A stretch of 41,314 nucleotides of DNA from Ignavibacteria bacterium (GTDB taxonomy: Bacteria > Bacteroidota > Ignavibacteria > Ignavibacteriales > Ignavibacteriaceae), in the NCBI GenBank assembly GCA_021286645.1, contig JAJTBZ010000018.1, forward strand, positions 1 to 41,314. The letters are read 5' to 3'. The position numbers and the translations under genes were made by a program. The notes under the pieces are model-generated. The model had not been told where the DNA came from and searched no databases. It worked only from the letters and a program-made list of their open reading frames with translations. How positions within the stretch are numbered: position 1 is the stretch's first letter; each line of letters starts with the position of its first letter. Below, piece by piece: positions 33,397-40,838 of this stretch.

Positions 33397-33454
33397 TTAG
33401 TTACAGTCAGGGTTTGTAGTGCCTTGGCTAAGAGTGAAGAATGGAGATAATAGC

Positions 33455-33697
33455 ATGGATTTTGCCGAAGTAAAGAATGTACCGATGACCGGAGTGATTG
33501 AATCGAGTATATCTGCATCTGTAGCCGATGAGATGAGGGAAATAGCAGATAGATTACAGGTTGAATACCCGACACATGCCCCGGCAAAAATTGAAGCAGC
33601 AGTAGATTTTGCTTCAAAAATTGCAAAAACACGGGTGTATGACGATCGCTTCGCCCGAATTGCACGGCTATATCTTTCTATTTGTAATATACAATAA
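33455..33697 (+). CDS. hypothetical 80-residue protein
   Basis: A small soluble protein (MDFAEVKNVPMTGVIESSIS at the N-terminus) with a basic helical C-terminus (AVDFASKIAKTRVYDDRFARIARLYLS). GGAG lies eight bases ahead of the ATG at 33455, which is better than longer in-frame starts. No family recognised. Downstream of the 159-residue hypothetical gene on the same strand; the pair may be functionally linked. A minus-strand frame overlapping it (33397-33846) is considered a shadow. Confidence 0.6.
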   Translation: MDFAEVKNVPMTGVIESSISASVADEMREIADRLQVEYPTHAPAKIEAAVDFASKIAKTRVYDDRFARIARLYLSICNIQ

Positions 33698-33871: not shown

Positions 33872-33897
33872 GGTTGTACAGTATAGACCGTACAACC
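33872..33897. promoter_or_regulatory. operator-like palindrome upstream of the CPPYCY-repeat gene
   Basis: GGTTGTAC (33872-33879) and GTACAACC (33890-33897) are perfect 8-base arms with a 10-base spacer, 81 bases before the ATG at 33979. The half-sites face each other on opposite helical faces about one turn and three-quarters apart, as in many dimeric repressor sites. Regulator unknown. Confidence 0.5.
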
Positions 33898-33978: not shown

Positions 33979-34791
33979 ATGAGTACAGGAAAAATCTATC
34001 GTTCCGGTTTGTTTGTAGTTTCGTTATTGCTGATGCTTTCGGGGTATTTGCACGCGCAAACTTTCGGTACAATTTTTACCAGCGATGAAGCTTACGTAAA
34101 GTTCGGGCCAGTGCTGGATTCTGTGGTGATTTCTACCGACGTGGTGAATGCTTTAATGAAGCAGACTACCGGGGTAATGATGTTTAATATCGAAAATGGT
34201 AAACTTACCATATTAGGGGCAAATCGTGTGGTACTGTATCCCAAAGAGGCTGTTGTGCCCGATAGTGTTGTCTTTCATTCGTACAGCATTAGCCAGATTG
34301 TAGAGTTGGAAAAGAAAGGCGAGGCGAAAAACCTGCAGGTGGAAGCCAGAAAGTCTGTTCTTTCAATAAGCAATGGTACATTCGTTATGGAAATCGGTGC
34401 GCCTTGCCCGCCTTACTGTTATGAAACCTTAGGAACGCTGTTTACTGCCGAGAAAGCGAACGAGTTGTATGGAAAGGTTCTGACTTCTGTATCGATGAAG
34501 ACTGATGAACTGACCGCGCTGCTTGATAAAGCAGGAAGTGTGATAATGTTTAATATTGAAAAAGGCAAAGTGCAGGTATTGGGAAGTAACCGGGTTGTTT
34601 TAGTGCCCGCAGGTGCAGATATTCCGGCCAGTACAGTATTTACCGTATATAGCTCCGGTCAGGTTAAATTATTACTCACTCAGGGCGGAGCTGCGGAAAC
34701 CTTTATAGAGCAGCGGCAGAACGTATTAACCATTACGAATGGCGCTACTACTATGGAAATTGGCGCACCCTGTCCACCATATTGCTATTAA
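33979..34791 (+). CDS. secreted protein of two tandem ~120-residue modules ending CPPYCY
   Basis: A 270-residue exported protein: signal peptide 1-27 (ending HAQ), then module 1 (about 28-148) and module 2 (about 149-270). The modules align over their whole length: T-[FL]-G-T-[IL]-F-T, [GS]-V-[MI]-M-F-N-I-E-[NK]-G-K, [VL]-L-G-[AS]-N-R-V-V-L, [VS]-x-S-Y-S..., and both end in M-E-I-G-A-P-C-P-P-Y-C-Y. The two Cys per module (C-P-P-Y-C) may bind metal or form a disulfide. A single gene made of two copies of the same domain is a clear internal duplication. No known family recognised. Ribosome site AAAGGAAA precedes the ATG. Confidence 0.85.
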   Translation: MSTGKIYRSGLFVVSLLLMLSGYLHAQTFGTIFTSDEAYVKFGPVLDSVVISTDVVNALMKQTTGVMMFNIENGKLTILGANRVVLYPKEAVVPDSVVFHSYSISQIVELEKKGEAKNLQVEARKSVLSISNGTFVMEIGAPCPPYCYETLGTLFTAEKANELYGKVLTSVSMKTDELTALLDKAGSVIMFNIEKGKVQVLGSNRVVLVPAGADIPASTVFTVYSSGQVKLLLTQGGAAETFIEQRQNVLTITNGATTMEIGAPCPPYCY

Positions 34792-35026: not shown

Positions 35027-35641
35027 ATGCTCTATCATCATGTAGATATCTTTATTATTTTGGCTTTAGGGGTAACTTTCTTATGGATGCTTACACCTTT
35101 CAGGCAGGTAAAAACAGGGTATTTTTATTTCTTTCTGTGCCTGTCGCTTATGGAGGTAACCACACATATTGCAAAGCTTGCATTTCATTACTCCGGTAAT
35201 GTCTGGTATATGTTCTTCAATTATTTGATTCTGGCGACACTGCAACCCGAGTTGTTAATGAAGAAGCAATACCGCTACTGGTACATACTGGGCGGGGTAA
35301 TTTTGCTTGCTCTCAATTTTTATATTCTTGCCTTTAAAGAACAATTGCTTATTATAGCATTATTGCAGGTAATAATCTCGCTTATTATCTTCACCAGATT
35401 TATTAAACAGCTTACACTTACCGGTAACCTCTCGGTATTTTTGCTTATTCTAATTGCAAGCGGACTTATGGATGCCCTGAAGTTATTTAATTTACTGCTC
35501 GGCACACCGCTGGGGCTATACTACTTTTATATAAATCAGATAAGTTCGTTAATTGCCGGAATTATTTTCTGCATGTTTACGGATTCGCATAAGTGGCTCA
35601 ATTTTAAGATACATCAGCATCCGCCGCAAATACAGGCATAA
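35027..35641 (+). CDS. multi-pass membrane protein upstream of a two-component system
   Basis: A 204-residue integral membrane protein with about seven hydrophobic segments (IFIILALGVTFLWML, YFYFFLCLSLMEVTTHIA, YWYILGGVILLALNFYILA, LLIIALLQVIISLIIFTRF, VFLLILIASGLMDALKLF, FYINQISSLIAGIIFCMF). The helical arrangement resembles 7TM sensory modules, and only 4 bases separate it from the histidine kinase gene, so it may supply an extra sensing or membrane-anchoring part to that kinase. No family recognised; ATG at 35027 has no clear ribosome site. Confidence 0.7.
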   Translation: MLYHHVDIFIILALGVTFLWMLTPFRQVKTGYFYFFLCLSLMEVTTHIAKLAFHYSGNVWYMFFNYLILATLQPELLMKKQYRYWYILGGVILLALNFYILAFKEQLLIIALLQVIISLIIFTRFIKQLTLTGNLSVFLLILIASGLMDALKLFNLLLGTPLGLYYFYINQISSLIAGIIFCMFTDSHKWLNFKIHQHPPQIQA

Positions 35642-35645
35642 TAAC

Positions 35646-36863
35646 ATGGTTTTACATTGCATATCGTTCGTTATTGCCGCGTTTCAAATTTCGCAACAGG
35701 AGGAATTCCGTTTCTGGCGTTGGGATAACCCTGTTATTTTTACCGTATTATTTGTTTCGTTTTTGGCAATTCTGGTGTATTATATATCGATGAAGGTTGT
35801 AGTGCCCGAGCGCTTAAAAATGCAGGAAGAGCTATATAAGAAGAAGCTGGAAAATATGCGGATGATGTCGTTGTTTGCCGAGAAGGATCCCAACCCGCTA
35901 CTCCGTATAGATAAACAGGGTAATATTTCGTATTGCAACGATGCGGCAATTGAGATTTTTTCCGATAACCAGTTGATCGGCCGCCCTTTTGCCGAAATAA
36001 TTATTGAGGGAACCAGCGAACGTATTGGAAAACTGATTGAACAGGACGAGTCCTTTGCCCGGGAACTTGCTTTGCGTGGTAAATACTTTTGGTTGAATGT
36101 TATTGGATTTAAGGAATTAGGGTTCGCTCAGAGTTATTTTTCGGATATCACGGACCAGAAAAACTTGAATATCCGTCTGGCAAATACCAACACGCAACTG
36201 CGTGAACTTTCCAATTATCTGAATATAGCGGGAGAAAGCGAACGAAAAAAGATCGCGAAAGAATTGCATGATGGTGTTGGCATGTCACTTTCGCTTATTA
36301 AATTGAAACTGAATGCTATAGGTGAAGTTTTAAAAGATAACCAACTGGCCACCGCTGCTTTTGGTGAAATTGCCGCATTTACCGATAGTGTATCCGCTGG
36401 TATAAAAGAGATTATGGCGGGCCTGCATCCACGCATACTTGAAGATTTTGGACTCGATGCCTCCTTTCGGATTTACGTAGAAAAGGTTACCGAGAAAACA
36501 GGTCTGTCGGGGAAATACCATACAAACAGGTTCGCGGACCGCTTCCCCCCGCAGTTTGAAATTACCGTGTACCGACTCGTACAGGAATTAATTAATAATA
36601 TTGTGAAACACGCCAGGGCAAGTTGGTTTAGTGTAACTGTTAGTTACATAGATGGCGTGCTGCAAATTACTGTGGATGATGATGGCGTAGGTTTCGATGA
36701 GGCAAAAATTCGCGAAACAAAAAAGGGGATGGGCTTGCGCAATTTACGCGAGCGGGTTACGGGTTTTAATGGCGAAATAGAAATTGACTCTTCTCCCGAA
36801 GAAGGCACGCATGTTACTATAGAATTCCTGAAGGAGCATATAGATGCCGGACAGAATAGTTAA
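35646..36863 (+). CDS. NarX/DegS-like sensor histidine kinase with PAS domain
   Basis: A 405-residue kinase. Start at ATG 35646 (MVLHCISFVIAAF) removes a long frame that would overlap the upstream gene. Order: TM segment (about 30-50, VIFTVLFVSFLAILVYYISM), coiled coil, PAS domain (about 72-170), HisKA_3 dimerisation domain with His208 in KKIAKELHDGVGMSLS, and HATPase_c with ELINNIVKHA, DDDGVGFDE and KKGMGLRNLRERV (about 310-400). This class pairs with NarL/FixJ regulators, and such a regulator follows with a 20-base overlap, so the two are a cognate pair. Confidence 0.94.
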   Translation: MVLHCISFVIAAFQISQQEEFRFWRWDNPVIFTVLFVSFLAILVYYISMKVVVPERLKMQEELYKKKLENMRMMSLFAEKDPNPLLRIDKQGNISYCNDAAIEIFSDNQLIGRPFAEIIIEGTSERIGKLIEQDESFARELALRGKYFWLNVIGFKELGFAQSYFSDITDQKNLNIRLANTNTQLRELSNYLNIAGESERKKIAKELHDGVGMSLSLIKLKLNAIGEVLKDNQLATAAFGEIAAFTDSVSAGIKEIMAGLHPRILEDFGLDASFRIYVEKVTEKTGLSGKYHTNRFADRFPPQFEITVYRLVQELINNIVKHARASWFSVTVSYIDGVLQITVDDDGVGFDEAKIRETKKGMGLRNLRERVTGFNGEIEIDSSPEEGTHVTIEFLKEHIDAGQNS

Positions 36864-37524
36864 TGTTGTAATTGTTGACGACCACCGCCTGCTTCGTGAA
36901 GGGCTTAAATCACTATTATCCGAAGTTACCGGAATTACCGTTATTGGCGAGGCCCCCGATGGCGAACAGGGGCTTGAGGTGATCTCATCGTTACAGCCCG
37001 ATGTGGTGCTGATGGATATTTCGCTGCCCGGTATTTTTGGGTATGAAGTTGTAAGCCGGATAAAAGCAGAGTCCCCGGCAGTTAAGTTCCTGATGATTAC
37101 CAATTTTGATAATGATATGTATTTTTATAAATGCGTTCATGCCGGAGCCGGCGGAGTTATTCATAAAAACCCGACCCGGGATGAATTGAAAAATGCAATT
37201 TTGCAGGTATTTGAAGGCACTGACCTGTTTTATAATAACAAATCACCGAAGGAAATTGAAACGGTATTACGCAGGTACGATCAGGAACCCGCGTATGCTA
37301 TTAATGTAGAGGAAGTACGCCTTACTCCACGGGAAAAAGAAATTTTGAAGCGCGTACTTATGGGTAGATCGTATAAGGAAATAGCGGCTGAATTATTTAT
37401 CAGTGTAAAAACAGTTGAAAACCATCGCAGGGTATTACTGACGAAGTTCAACGCGAAATCCGCTTATGAACTCATGTCTATATTTACCGTGAATGAAAAG
37501 CTGCGCCGAAAAGTATATGAGTAA
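36844..37524 (+). CDS. NarL/FixJ family response regulator
   Basis: A 226-residue regulator. Receiver domain (about 5-120): acidic pair in VVIVDDHRLLREGL, phospho-acceptor Asp58 in VVLMDISLPG, and a Thr/Lys pair in LMITNFDN and VIHKNPT. The C-terminal LuxR-type helix-turn-helix (about 160-215) has LTPREKEILKRVLMGRSYKE and IAAELFISVKTVENHRRVLL. Overlaps the kinase gene by 20 bases. Target genes are unknown; no obvious binding repeats nearby. Terminator at 37546-37578. Confidence 0.95.
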   Translation: MPDRIVNVVIVDDHRLLREGLKSLLSEVTGITVIGEAPDGEQGLEVISSLQPDVVLMDISLPGIFGYEVVSRIKAESPAVKFLMITNFDNDMYFYKCVHAGAGGVIHKNPTRDELKNAILQVFEGTDLFYNNKSPKEIETVLRRYDQEPAYAINVEEVRLTPREKEILKRVLMGRSYKEIAAELFISVKTVENHRRVLLTKFNAKSAYELMSIFTVNEKLRRKVYE

Positions 37525-38360: not shown

Positions 38361-40838
38361 TTATCGTATATTAGTAAATGAGCGGAAGTTGTAACCCCGT
38401 TCTTTTAATGTTGTTAGTAACTGATCGAGAGAATTACAGAACAGATCAGTCCGCTCCGGGTGCGTGCCAATGTGCATTAACAGCAGTGCCCCGTTGAGCG
38501 CGCCGGGCTTTTGCGCTTCCTTGCGTAATACCGCATCGAGTATTGCTTCACTCGTTTTGTATGATTTCATCGAGGGTATCGTATAATCTGCATTAGTAAA
38601 CCAGCCGGGGGTTATATTTACCAGTTGCAGCCCTGCCATGCCTGTCCACCTGCCGATAGTACCATTATGCCATTCATACGCGGGCAGGAAATACGGTGAT
38701 GTAATTTTGTTTAACCCGAATGGTGCCATGGCCCGGTAGTTATTGGCTATATCGGCGAAGAACGAATCGCGTGAAACGAGCAGGGAATCGCGTTTGTTCC
38801 AATCGGCATACAAAATATGCTGCCCGGAGTGCCCGCCAAGATAGTGACCTGCCGCCAGCAACTGCCTGATTGTACCTTCGTGCGCGGGGTTGCGGTAAAA
38901 ATCACCGGTTAGAAAGAAGGAGGCGGTAATTGAGTGCTTTGCCAATACACGGGTAATTGTTTCAGCGGCGTTATCGAATTCATGCCCGGTAAAACAGAGA
39001 TAAATTGTTTGTTGTGTAGAATCCATGCGGGTAAGGGCTCCGGATTCAAACGTACATTTTTCTAAGGCACGGGTAACCCTGCTCTCGGCCTCAATGGCCG
39101 AAAATATATACGTTAGTCCGGCAGTGCCATCCATTGTTGGTTCGTTGGTGGAGTAATCGCCAAAGTCATTATGGTAAACTGCCAAATCTGACTGGAAGTT
39201 CTTACCCTCATCGGGGTGGTGTAGCTGAATACCGAGTAATTTTTGGTAGATTGAATTATACACGGGGCCGTCAACCAGTCCGCCATCCAGGGCGTAGTGG
39301 TTAAGCACGTGCAATGATGAATGCGGGTCGGTAGGTGTGGGCATATCTACCGGCAGGTTGCATATCATGCTGGTGCCCCATGGATTGCAGCCCAGCAGCC
39401 AGTCGCGAGCGGCGAATTCAATTTCAATGAAAGCAGAATCACCAGTCATAATGCGGTACAGGCGAGAGAGAGTTGCTTCGGCAGAGGTAAGGTTATTTGA
39501 GCACCAAATAAATGGTACGCCGTTACGAAAAGGATTATGCGAAGCCCGGCGCGAAAGTTTCTGTAACGCGCTTTTTATGAAAAGCAGCATTGAATCACGT
39601 TCCGGCCCGTTGGAATTGGCCGCGAGGTAGTAATGCCCCAGATTAATAAACGGGTAATACTGGTAATGCCTTGCTGTATCGGCCCCCATCCAGGGAGAAA
39701 CGGGTTCCCGGAGCGCGTAGTTGTACGCTTCATTACGGGCAGTGGTATCCGCTGTTAGTTTGTACATCTGTACGGCCGCGAGTTCCATATCATCAACCCA
39801 GTTTTCCTCTTCATAAAAATAGGGTGAAACGCACGGTGCGGTTTGGCAATAACCGGGATGTAATTTGCTATATGCATACGCGGCTCGCGCCTTCTCCCGT
39901 AAAGTATCGGCATAACCGGGGCAAAAGGGAGCCAGTACCTGAGCCCCGAGAGAAAATGATGATGCAAACTTAGCCACGATAGAGGCAGAACCTGTTGTTC
40001 TGTTCTGATACTTTAGTAATCCTTGCGGCTGATCGGTAACGCGGTACACGGGGCGACCCGGAAAGGGGCCATAAGTTACCGTATCTTTATTCGGAAGCCT
40101 GAATCCCCGGTGGTCGCGATCATCGGCAATTTGATGATAATACTCGCCTTCGTTCGGGTTAAGGCGCAGCAGCCAGTTTAAACCCCACTTCGCCTCATCC
40201 AGAATATCCGGAATGCCATTTGAACCGGGCAGCCCGGCAGCAGTGTAAAAATCGCCAAAAGCCGAAGGGTTTTGCTGGTAAGCAAAAAGCATATGGAAAA
40301 TGGCAGTGGCAGAGGTGGTTGCATATTGCAAATAGTCTGTCGCGTCGTGCCAACCGCCCCGCGCATCGATATGCTGCCCGACGCGGGTTGAATCGTATAT
40401 TATAAACCCGTCCTTGGTGTGGCAAGAATCCTTAAGGAAAGGATTATAGCCGCAGCGTTGCTGCCGCATATAGCGAAGCAGGAAATCGGCAGTGCCATTA
40501 TAAAGGTCATAACCGATTGCAAATACGGGGGAAGAGACATTCCCCGCGGTAATGCGGTACCTGCCGGGCCGGGTAAGCGAACTGAAATTAATTCGAATTG
40601 CCTCGGGAAAGGAAGCGAAACTGCCACAGGATGTGCAGTGGATAGTTACCGGTTCGGCAAGGCCGGTTTCATCGTCTATTATTGTAATTTTATCATTCCC
40701 GTGACCGGTTTCGGCCAAATAAACTGCTGTTTTATAGTCTCGTGGCAGGTAACCCATAAGGTTAACCCGTATTGCGCCGGGAGCCGCGTATATACCATAG
40801 GCGCAGAACAGCGTGAAGAATAGTATGTATTTTTTCAT
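38361..40838 (-). CDS. GH9 glycoside hydrolase fused to a polysaccharide-deacetylase-like domain
   Basis: An 825-residue secreted protein (signal peptide MKKYILFFTLFCAYGIYAA). Order: CelD N-terminal Ig-like domain (about 22-108), GH9 (alpha/alpha)6 catalytic domain (about 112-590) and a C-terminal NodB/CE4-like domain (about 610-825). GH9 motifs: catalytic Asp pair in GGWHDATDYLQY (Asp165, Asp168) and the proton-donor Glu region STNEPTMDGTAGL. GH9 enzymes are mainly beta-1,4-glucanases. The CE4-like part has the H-x3-H motif (GGHSGQHILYADW), but motif 1 reads FTGHEFDN rather than TFDDG, so it may be a catalytically altered deacetylase domain. Such GH9-CE4 fusions are known in Bacteroidota as I recall. 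No sorting domain. Confidence 0.9.
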   Translation of the reverse strand: MKKYILFFTLFCAYGIYAAPGAIRVNLMGYLPRDYKTAVYLAETGHGNDKITIIDDETGLAEPVTIHCTSCGSFASFPEAIRINFSSLTRPGRYRITAGNVSSPVFAIGYDLYNGTADFLLRYMRQQRCGYNPFLKDSCHTKDGFIIYDSTRVGQHIDARGGWHDATDYLQYATTSATAIFHMLFAYQQNPSAFGDFYTAAGLPGSNGIPDILDEAKWGLNWLLRLNPNEGEYYHQIADDRDHRGFRLPNKDTVTYGPFPGRPVYRVTDQPQGLLKYQNRTTGSASIVAKFASSFSLGAQVLAPFCPGYADTLREKARAAYAYSKLHPGYCQTAPCVSPYFYEEENWVDDMELAAVQMYKLTADTTARNEAYNYALREPVSPWMGADTARHYQYYPFINLGHYYLAANSNGPERDSMLLFIKSALQKLSRRASHNPFRNGVPFIWCSNNLTSAEATLSRLYRIMTGDSAFIEIEFAARDWLLGCNPWGTSMICNLPVDMPTPTDPHSSLHVLNHYALDGGLVDGPVYNSIYQKLLGIQLHHPDEGKNFQSDLAVYHNDFGDYSTNEPTMDGTAGLTYIFSAIEAESRVTRALEKCTFESGALTRMDSTQQTIYLCFTGHEFDNAAETITRVLAKHSITASFFLTGDFYRNPAHEGTIRQLLAAGHYLGGHSGQHILYADWNKRDSLLVSRDSFFADIANNYRAMAPFGLNKITSPYFLPAYEWHNGTIGRWTGMAGLQLVNITPGWFTNADYTIPSMKSYKTSEAILDAVLRKEAQKPGALNGALLLMHIGTHPERTDLFCNSLDQLLTTLKERGYNFRSFTNIR

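Follow-up and report, generated by a model that had tools for sequence, protein, structure and literature searches.

The Lia system pairs LiaS, a histidine kinase of the HisKA_3 type, with LiaR, a response regulator of the NarL type, and in the Rcs phosphorelay (RcsF–IgaA–RcsC/D–RcsB) the protein RcsF has disulfides and RcsB is a NarL-type regulator. The HbpS–SenS–SenR system of Streptomyces is not known to include a separate protein with seven transmembrane helices (7TM). Published accounts describe LiaFSR–LiaX of enterococci and Bacillus as a surface protein, a membrane accessory protein and a kinase, together with a regulator that switches on the locus encoding it (PMC10269926, PMC3543457), in which LiaF carries the domain PF09922 and LiaX carries PF13349 (PMC10269926). 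HbpS is presented as a secreted, octameric, iron/haem-related protein whose input to the sensor kinase and the regulator is part of a redox response (PMC4991794, PMC3754957). Bacterial 7TM receptors are described as seven-helix input domains of signalling proteins, and in BtsS as that of a kinase (PMC10653868). Here, a 41,314-nucleotide stretch of DNA from Ignavibacteria bacterium (contig JAJTBZ010000018.1, hereafter the window) carries an open reading frame (ORF) for a protein of two tandem modules, each ending in a Cys-Pro-Pro-x-Cys (CPPxC) motif, followed by genes for a 7TM protein, a histidine kinase and a response regulator. The module family probably contributes one component to a bacterial signalling device that has yet to be described, and the reading favoured here, with moderate confidence, is that the ORF encodes the accessory component, extracytoplasmic in this genome, of a four-gene signalling operon. 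The original prediction, made from the window alone, is confirmed in what it observed of the ORF and partly supported in its interpretation; it overlooked the seven-helix protein, kinase and regulator beside it.

Neither half of the window protein is covered by any Pfam, NCBIfam, PHROGs or PDB-sequence family, and no Pfam domain lies over each half; the original prediction had recognised no known family, and this stands. The only Pfam traces on the full ORF were far under the cut-off (DUF7349, E 0.11; DUF4369, E 0.14). The module is a genuine family, widespread in the window's order, whose members usually have one copy. When whole genomes were searched, 61 of 97 related genomes (a count that includes the window's own) proved to carry relatives. 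A profile search across 395 genomes drawn from the phylum gave 33; apart from three belonging to a single genus outside the window's class, all are members of the window's order. A contig scan with three close relatives as queries gave four loci, which lie in Ignavibacteria metagenome assemblies; the same kind of scan with the window protein as query returned no relatives. The matches of both genome searches, minus one fragment (G088:C137), gave 80 regions including the window, and the census counts 79 module ORFs, as one region (L136) runs into N and gave none. The motif CPPxC is kept in 76 of the 79 members and lies within six residues of the C-terminus in 75; the three others comprise one CLPLC, one member in which the motif is absent and one cut by a contig end (L132). 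L126 ends without CPPxC. Among 28 aligned modules, residues G4, R57, E96, R98, E112, C117, P119 and C121 are invariant. No paper describing the family or gene set was found in the open-licence PubMed Central texts, as far as the available portions of those texts extend.

By sequence, these loci show a conserved gene set, a near-constant pairing of CPPxC and 7TM genes, kinases with a single N-terminal helix as their sole predicted membrane part and, in several relatives, clustered GTA-N4-TAC dyads. The gene after the module belongs to the 7TM family in 68 of the 79 loci, encodes another protein with at least four predicted transmembrane (TM) helices in seven and something else in two; in the other two it lies beyond the contig. 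Same-strand matches to kinase and regulator profiles occur within four genes in 62/79 and 57/79 loci, respectively; as the source of both profiles was these same neighbouring genes, some matches could be to kinases or regulators with no relation to the system. At thresholds of 0.01 and 1e-6, 58 of 97 genomes contain both the module and 7TM families and 34 contain neither; the module occurs alone in three (G034, G065 and G078) and the 7TM protein alone in two (G025 and G074).

It is proposed that the 7TM protein acts as the detached sensor of the kinase, and that the CPPxC protein attaches to the outer face of this sensor and determines whether the NarL-type regulator is phosphorylated by the kinase. 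In turn, the regulator would bind dyads before the CPPxC/7TM genes, in some genomes before its own kinase gene, and before a few genes for secreted proteins. Because the regulator would bind dyads at its gene, the accessory partner would be made in proportion to signalling, a form of feedback. The simplest account is a split receptor system whose 7TM protein, tuned by the CPPxC protein, would drive the kinase, with feedback at the level of transcription.

No Pfam or NCBIfam family was recognised in the 7TM protein, beyond isolated weak matches among 35 members (best HTTM, E 1.8e-4, in one of them), and none of the 35 matched a Pfam 7TMR-DISM domain at E 0.1. Family members are about 190 amino acids long and are modelled as seven helices with a predicted local distance difference test score (pLDDT) of 92.4. 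Mean Lys plus Arg counts are 2.4/2.7/2.5/2.9 for the three inner loops and the tail against 0.1/0.7/0.3/0.3 outside, unscaled for length, the inner segments being longer. From the model and the positive-inside rule, the protein is predicted to be oriented N-out and C-in. Columns W20, F33, F36 and F181 are invariant or nearly so, and the family has no invariant Cys or His. Structural comparison by VIA returned G-protein-coupled receptors (GPCRs) or GPCR-like proteins for all 50 matches listed, the best having a Z of 12.1 over 188 aligned residues with a root-mean-square deviation (rmsd) of 3.8; this Z is below the 13 advised for helical bundles, and Foldseek E-values were 0.39 or worse.

Fourteen stretches were taken around a subset of further 7TM matches. 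In four of these (L176–L179) the match to the 7TM family is a weaker one (E 7e-15 to 3e-11), and the same polypeptide continues into a GerE/LuxR domain, with E-values of 3e-18 to 9e-10 that all pass the Pfam cut-off. The junction with GerE marks the 7TM part as an input domain, and these chains are possible membrane-bound transcription factors. Two to four stand-alone 7TM genes stand in tandem at L184, L185, L188, L075 and G081:C39 (L126). A further reading is a bacterial protein-ligand/seven-helix-receptor cassette, in which a dedicated, folded and secreted ligand would use its CPPxC tail to act on a separate 7TM protein with GPCR-like topology, itself coupled to interchangeable kinases or fused to a LuxR-type DNA-binding domain, and the regulator would feed back directly on the ligand gene; this elaboration is considered unlikely.

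The combination of a membrane protein of about 190 residues, a kinase and a regulator with a constant Cys motif at the C-terminus of their neighbour further recalls Agr-like pheromone production, in which the module would be the carrier of a cleaved CPPxC peptide. The 7TM family lacks any invariant Cys or His and shows no match to the Pfam AgrB family, the model of the module shows a single folded domain (although pLDDT is 74 in its last residues), and one copy of the motif is internal in the window ORF, which together make a peptide pheromone very improbable.

In the first 200 residues of the main kinase cluster, a rule-based count found exactly one TM helix in 28 of 33 proteins and none in five. 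Most of these kinases would therefore have little outside the membrane with which to sense. The module/7TM pair occurs with two kinase types: HisKA_3 in the window, L060 and L063, and HisKA in L075, L084 and L088. Receiver-only regulators go with the HisKA kinases, as judged by Pfam for L084 and by length for the others. A conserved small protein of 76–90 amino acids is encoded in L062, L070, L073, L078, L086, L092 and L119, directly before the kinase in six of those seven loci (L119 being outside that count). Window ORF 33419–33697 was tried as a counterpart of a small helical ORF that lies before some kinases (c10) and gave no match.

Upstream of the module gene, GTA-N4-TAC dyads were sought within 250 nucleotides (nt), with three matching flanking bases required. 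They occur at 12 of the 79 loci, spread over nine genera, compared with 3 of 448 control upstream regions (drawn from the first 41 regions, all fetched for module loci) and a shuffle mean of 0.08. Other spacings from N2 to N13 each occur at no more than one of the 79 loci. The three control dyads stand before a gene near the module (L066), before a c15-type gene (L080) and before a gene beside a kinase (L086). By regulator class, set by length, dyads are found at 11/33 loci with a full-length regulator, 0/22 with a receiver-only regulator and 1/24 with none nearby, this last locus (L140) being near a contig end. Dyads also precede the kinase gene in L078 and L142, and stand beside small genes of the DUF3892 kind in L063, L078 and L142; the L063 protein passes the Pfam cut-off, the related L061 protein is just below it, and those of L078 and L142 are named by likeness.

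Because the motif was first seen in the regions in which it was then counted, whole-genome scans provide a better test. These scans gave 31 exact sites across nine genomes, of which 24 share a contig with a module gene and are no more than 11 kb from it; four pairs of sites are spaced exactly 31 base pairs apart. The reversed control pattern gave five sites. In G066, a genome that contributed nothing to the motif, both of two sites are near a module gene. The excess of dyads upstream of the module gene over the control regions suggests direct feedback control.

The same dyads could instead mark the CPPxC protein as an output, an envelope protein induced by the 7TM protein, kinase and regulator that has its own job and no feedback role. 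In favour of this, the dyads stand before module/7TM genes, and other genes with dyads encode leader-bearing proteins, namely three G014 paralogues and a G062 cluster of MauE, propeller and small-ORF genes. At the distant G014 sites (L163, L164 and L166) the start-to-dyad distance is 68 nt for all three paralogues; the only one scanned, that of L163, matches Sortilin-Vps10 and Por_Secre_tail, and L164 is cut by a contig end. In G062 (L170:3298-5623) a dyad is followed by a MauE gene, a 6-bladed-propeller gene and three consecutive small ORFs, each of 61–66 amino acids, leader-bearing and cysteine-containing. The MauE protein of L170 is a near-twin of the product of the L066 control gene and was identified by scanning. 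A pure output protein is nevertheless unlikely, as the module is tied to the 7TM gene (68/79) and stays with it while the kinase and regulator types change.

The window itself carries an inverted repeat, GGTTGTACAGT-ATAG-ACCGTACAACC, whose arms are 91% complementary. A scan of the window for the full pattern returned this single copy, and 100 shuffles returned none. Reduced to TTGTAC-N10-GTACAA, the repeat has no second perfect copy in the 3.72 Mb genome; a tolerance of one mismatch gives 11 genome sites, compared with five for the reversed pattern. The related pattern TTGTAC-N9..11-GTACAA is found upstream at two of the 79 loci (the window and L076) against 0.005 expected, which is too few to claim. 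The original prediction took this repeat as a sign of regulated expression, and it may well be regulatory. Relatives carry GTA-N4-TAC dyads at the same place; as the spacing here is N12 and theirs is N4, the idea that the local regulator uses this repeat as an operator is an extrapolation from them.

Several observations weigh against accessory control with feedback. Seventeen of the 79 loci have no kinase within four genes, some of them owing to contig ends. Of the module-free 7TM regions L180–L189, nine of ten have kinase and/or regulator genes (L181 has neither); as such sets occur without the module, the module, on gene content, is not required by the 7TM/kinase/regulator core. In nine of these ten regions no N4 dyad was seen, and some of the regions hold two or three consecutive 7TM genes. 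Among the loci with modules, 67/79 lack an N4 dyad in the 250 nt upstream, and the window repeat has the GTA half-site with the spacing GTA-N12-TAC. The p-value for the dyads, 1.9e-8, is optimistic, as the motif was found in the regions and then counted there and the loci are related by descent. Ten of the 31 genome sites had entered the upstream count before; among the other 21, 14 are near a module gene; in G014 one of six sites is near a module gene, and G024 has no site. Regulation of the module, furthermore, would be no proof that the module feeds back. Finally, a hydrophobicity rule classed the starts of the 79 members as leader-like in 63, lipobox-like in five and neither in 11. Eight of the 11 begin at the module, the open frame before their ATG extending over no more than 15 codons, and L082 is probably leaderless too, beginning at a later Met; the remaining two are a truncated member (L122) and one with a leader after a later Met (L134). 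As eight, probably nine, members dispersed across a tree of 78 modules are leaderless, a fixed extracytoplasmic role for the family is contradicted. As for the predicted secretion, this copy does have a signal-like N-terminus, and the prediction does not extend to the whole family, in which at least 8/79 are leaderless.

Under the accessory reading, the C-terminal Cys pair would be the working end of the module, as a disulfide switch, a metal site or a contact tail. The spacing Cys-x3-Cys is that of copper sites such as Sco1 and CuA, and the pair is both invariant in the 28 aligned modules and terminal, so the motif might bind Cu(I) or another soft metal, with the protein as metal sensor or carrier of the system. 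A disulfide fits equally well, the module has no other invariant Cys or His, and no metal transporter or oxidase is found among the annotated neighbours, several recurrent clusters lying outside the annotation. A metal protein is rated improbable.

Structure prediction, which had been suggested with the original prediction, gave a confident module: an AlphaFold2 model from 28 sequences has a pLDDT of 94.8. Sliding clamps account, by title, for at least 41 of the best 50 Foldseek matches listed against the PDB (E 0.11 or worse) and for all 50 matches listed by VIA, of which the best has a Z of 8.2 and an rmsd of 3.1 over 103 aligned residues. With Foldseek E-values of 0.11 or above and Z at the level of chance arrangement, the borderline match is read as a predicted resemblance in strand/helix arrangement only. 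These fold matches could point to a true DNA-clamp-type protein acting on DNA, a reading that is extremely improbable: a Z near 8 is reached by matches to unrelated models, no sequence match to a clamp family was found in Pfam, NCBIfam, PHROGs or PDB sequences, and the hydrophobicity rule classes the starts of 68 of the 79 members as leader-like or lipobox-like. A relation to SseB, prompted by a common FTSxxA stretch, was rejected (hhalign probability 0.1 over eight columns against one SseB member). An internal repeat within one module, prompted by two similar halves in the model, is not supported by sequence: its profile score of 12.2 falls short of the highest value, 15.1, reached by 30 column shuffles.

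The two modules of the window protein align end to end with 61/121 identities (50%), zero gaps and E = 3e-43 in BLASTP. Both end in MEIGAPCPPYCY, encoded at 34387–34422 and 34753–34788, so the identical 12-residue ending containing CPPYC was correctly noticed. The duplication had been called recent or constrained. Codons differ silently at 9 of the 12 positions of the ending and at 43 of the 61 residues shared by the modules; dN (nonsynonymous divergence) is 0.46 and dS (synonymous divergence) is saturated and not computable. With silent changes saturated, the codon comparison shows that the duplication is old and that the ending was kept by selection; the identical ending is no mark of recency, and of the two terms only constrained survives. 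In the tree of 78 modules the window's two are adjacent, with support of 97/63 (the second value weak) and in 96% of bootstrap trees, and since they pair in this way the doubling most likely arose in the window's lineage. The two-module form is found at one of the 79 loci, the window alone. As most members of this widespread family have a single module, the doubling is an oddity and not the family signature; it would give each chain two of the proposed working ends. Five other ORFs with two profile pieces are 168–173 amino acids long, too short for two modules, and a 451-residue open frame in L136 (G076:C1), which is outside the 79, passes through N and was rejected as a fusion. Features of the window and the 7TM–GerE chains are collected in Table 1; the kinase domains listed come from a Pfam scan of a longer frame (35553–36860), with the TM helix counted separately.

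Table 1. Coordinates of the window features and of the 7TM–GerE chains; aa, amino acids.
Feature	Position	Strand	Basis or remark
Inverted repeat GGTTGTACAGTATAGACCGTACAACC, candidate operon operator	33872-33897	.	ends 81 nt before ATG
Two-module CPPxC protein, 270 aa	33979-34791	+	
Signal-peptide-like segment, residues 1-26	33979-34056	+	sequence and hydrophobicity rule; cleavage site inferred
Module 1, residues 27-148, ends CPPYCY	34057-34422	+	BLASTP, alignment
CPPYC of module 1, C143-C147	34405-34419	+	
Module 2, residues 149-270, ends CPPYCY at C-terminus	34423-34788	+	BLASTP, alignment, tree
CPPYC of module 2, C265-C269	34771-34785	+	
Seven-helix membrane protein, 204 aa, no known family	35027-35641	+	
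Histidine kinase, 405 aa: one N-terminal TM, PAS, HisKA_3, HATPase_c	35646-36863	+	
NarL/LuxR-type response regulator, 226 aa: receiver and GerE	36844-37524	+	Pfam
7TM-GerE chains, 287-299 aa	L176:2004-2867, L177:1973-2872, L178:1967-2866, L179:1992-2855		

Farther along the window, positions 38361–40838 on the minus strand encode a single chain with CelD_N, glycosyl hydrolase family 9 and polysaccharide deacetylase domains. At L084, L088, L091, L095, L096 and L097, the module is preceded by genes that cluster or are placed like those of L084, whose scanned upstream genes encode a LonB-like protease, a pyruvate kinase and a radical SAM protein; the other five loci were assigned by clustering or placement.

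Two families unrecognised by Pfam and NCBIfam form the core of an apparently common signalling system in one order. With a 7TM protein that stands alone, is coupled to kinases or is fused to GerE, and that has a CPPxC protein as dedicated partner, it becomes testable whether a histidine kinase can be gated by a separate 7TM protein together with a protein partner. For such a test, the dyad offers a ready reporter.

Compared with LiaFSR–LiaX, the window locus is read as having the same division of labour with unrelated parts. The window kinase is likewise of the HisKA_3 type, with one N-terminal TM helix and no large extracytoplasmic sensor domain, and two relatives share this type, whereas three others have HisKA; the window regulator is likewise NarL-type (Response_reg and GerE), and that of L084 is receiver-only. 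Membership of the LiaFSR–LiaX family fails because its domains were not found: PF09922 (LiaF) has no match in the window 7TM protein or the 35 members, and PF13349 (LiaX, adhesin-type) has none in the window ORF or among the 28-module matches listed. The membrane partner here is, unlike LiaF, a bare seven-helix protein. The parts of the Rcs phosphorelay are enterobacterial, and no Pfam match of the module or 7TM protein points there. AgrBD differs in that the 7TM protein here lacks both an invariant catalytic-type His or Cys and an AgrB match. The sliding clamps PCNA and DnaN are alike in the strand/helix arrangement of the predicted module, with no sequence match found. In LytS-type BtsS the 7TM part and the kinase form one protein; here, compared with BtsS and 7TMR-DISM proteins, the 7TM part is usually a separate gene of about 190 codons with no 7TMR Pfam match, although 7TM–GerE chains exist.
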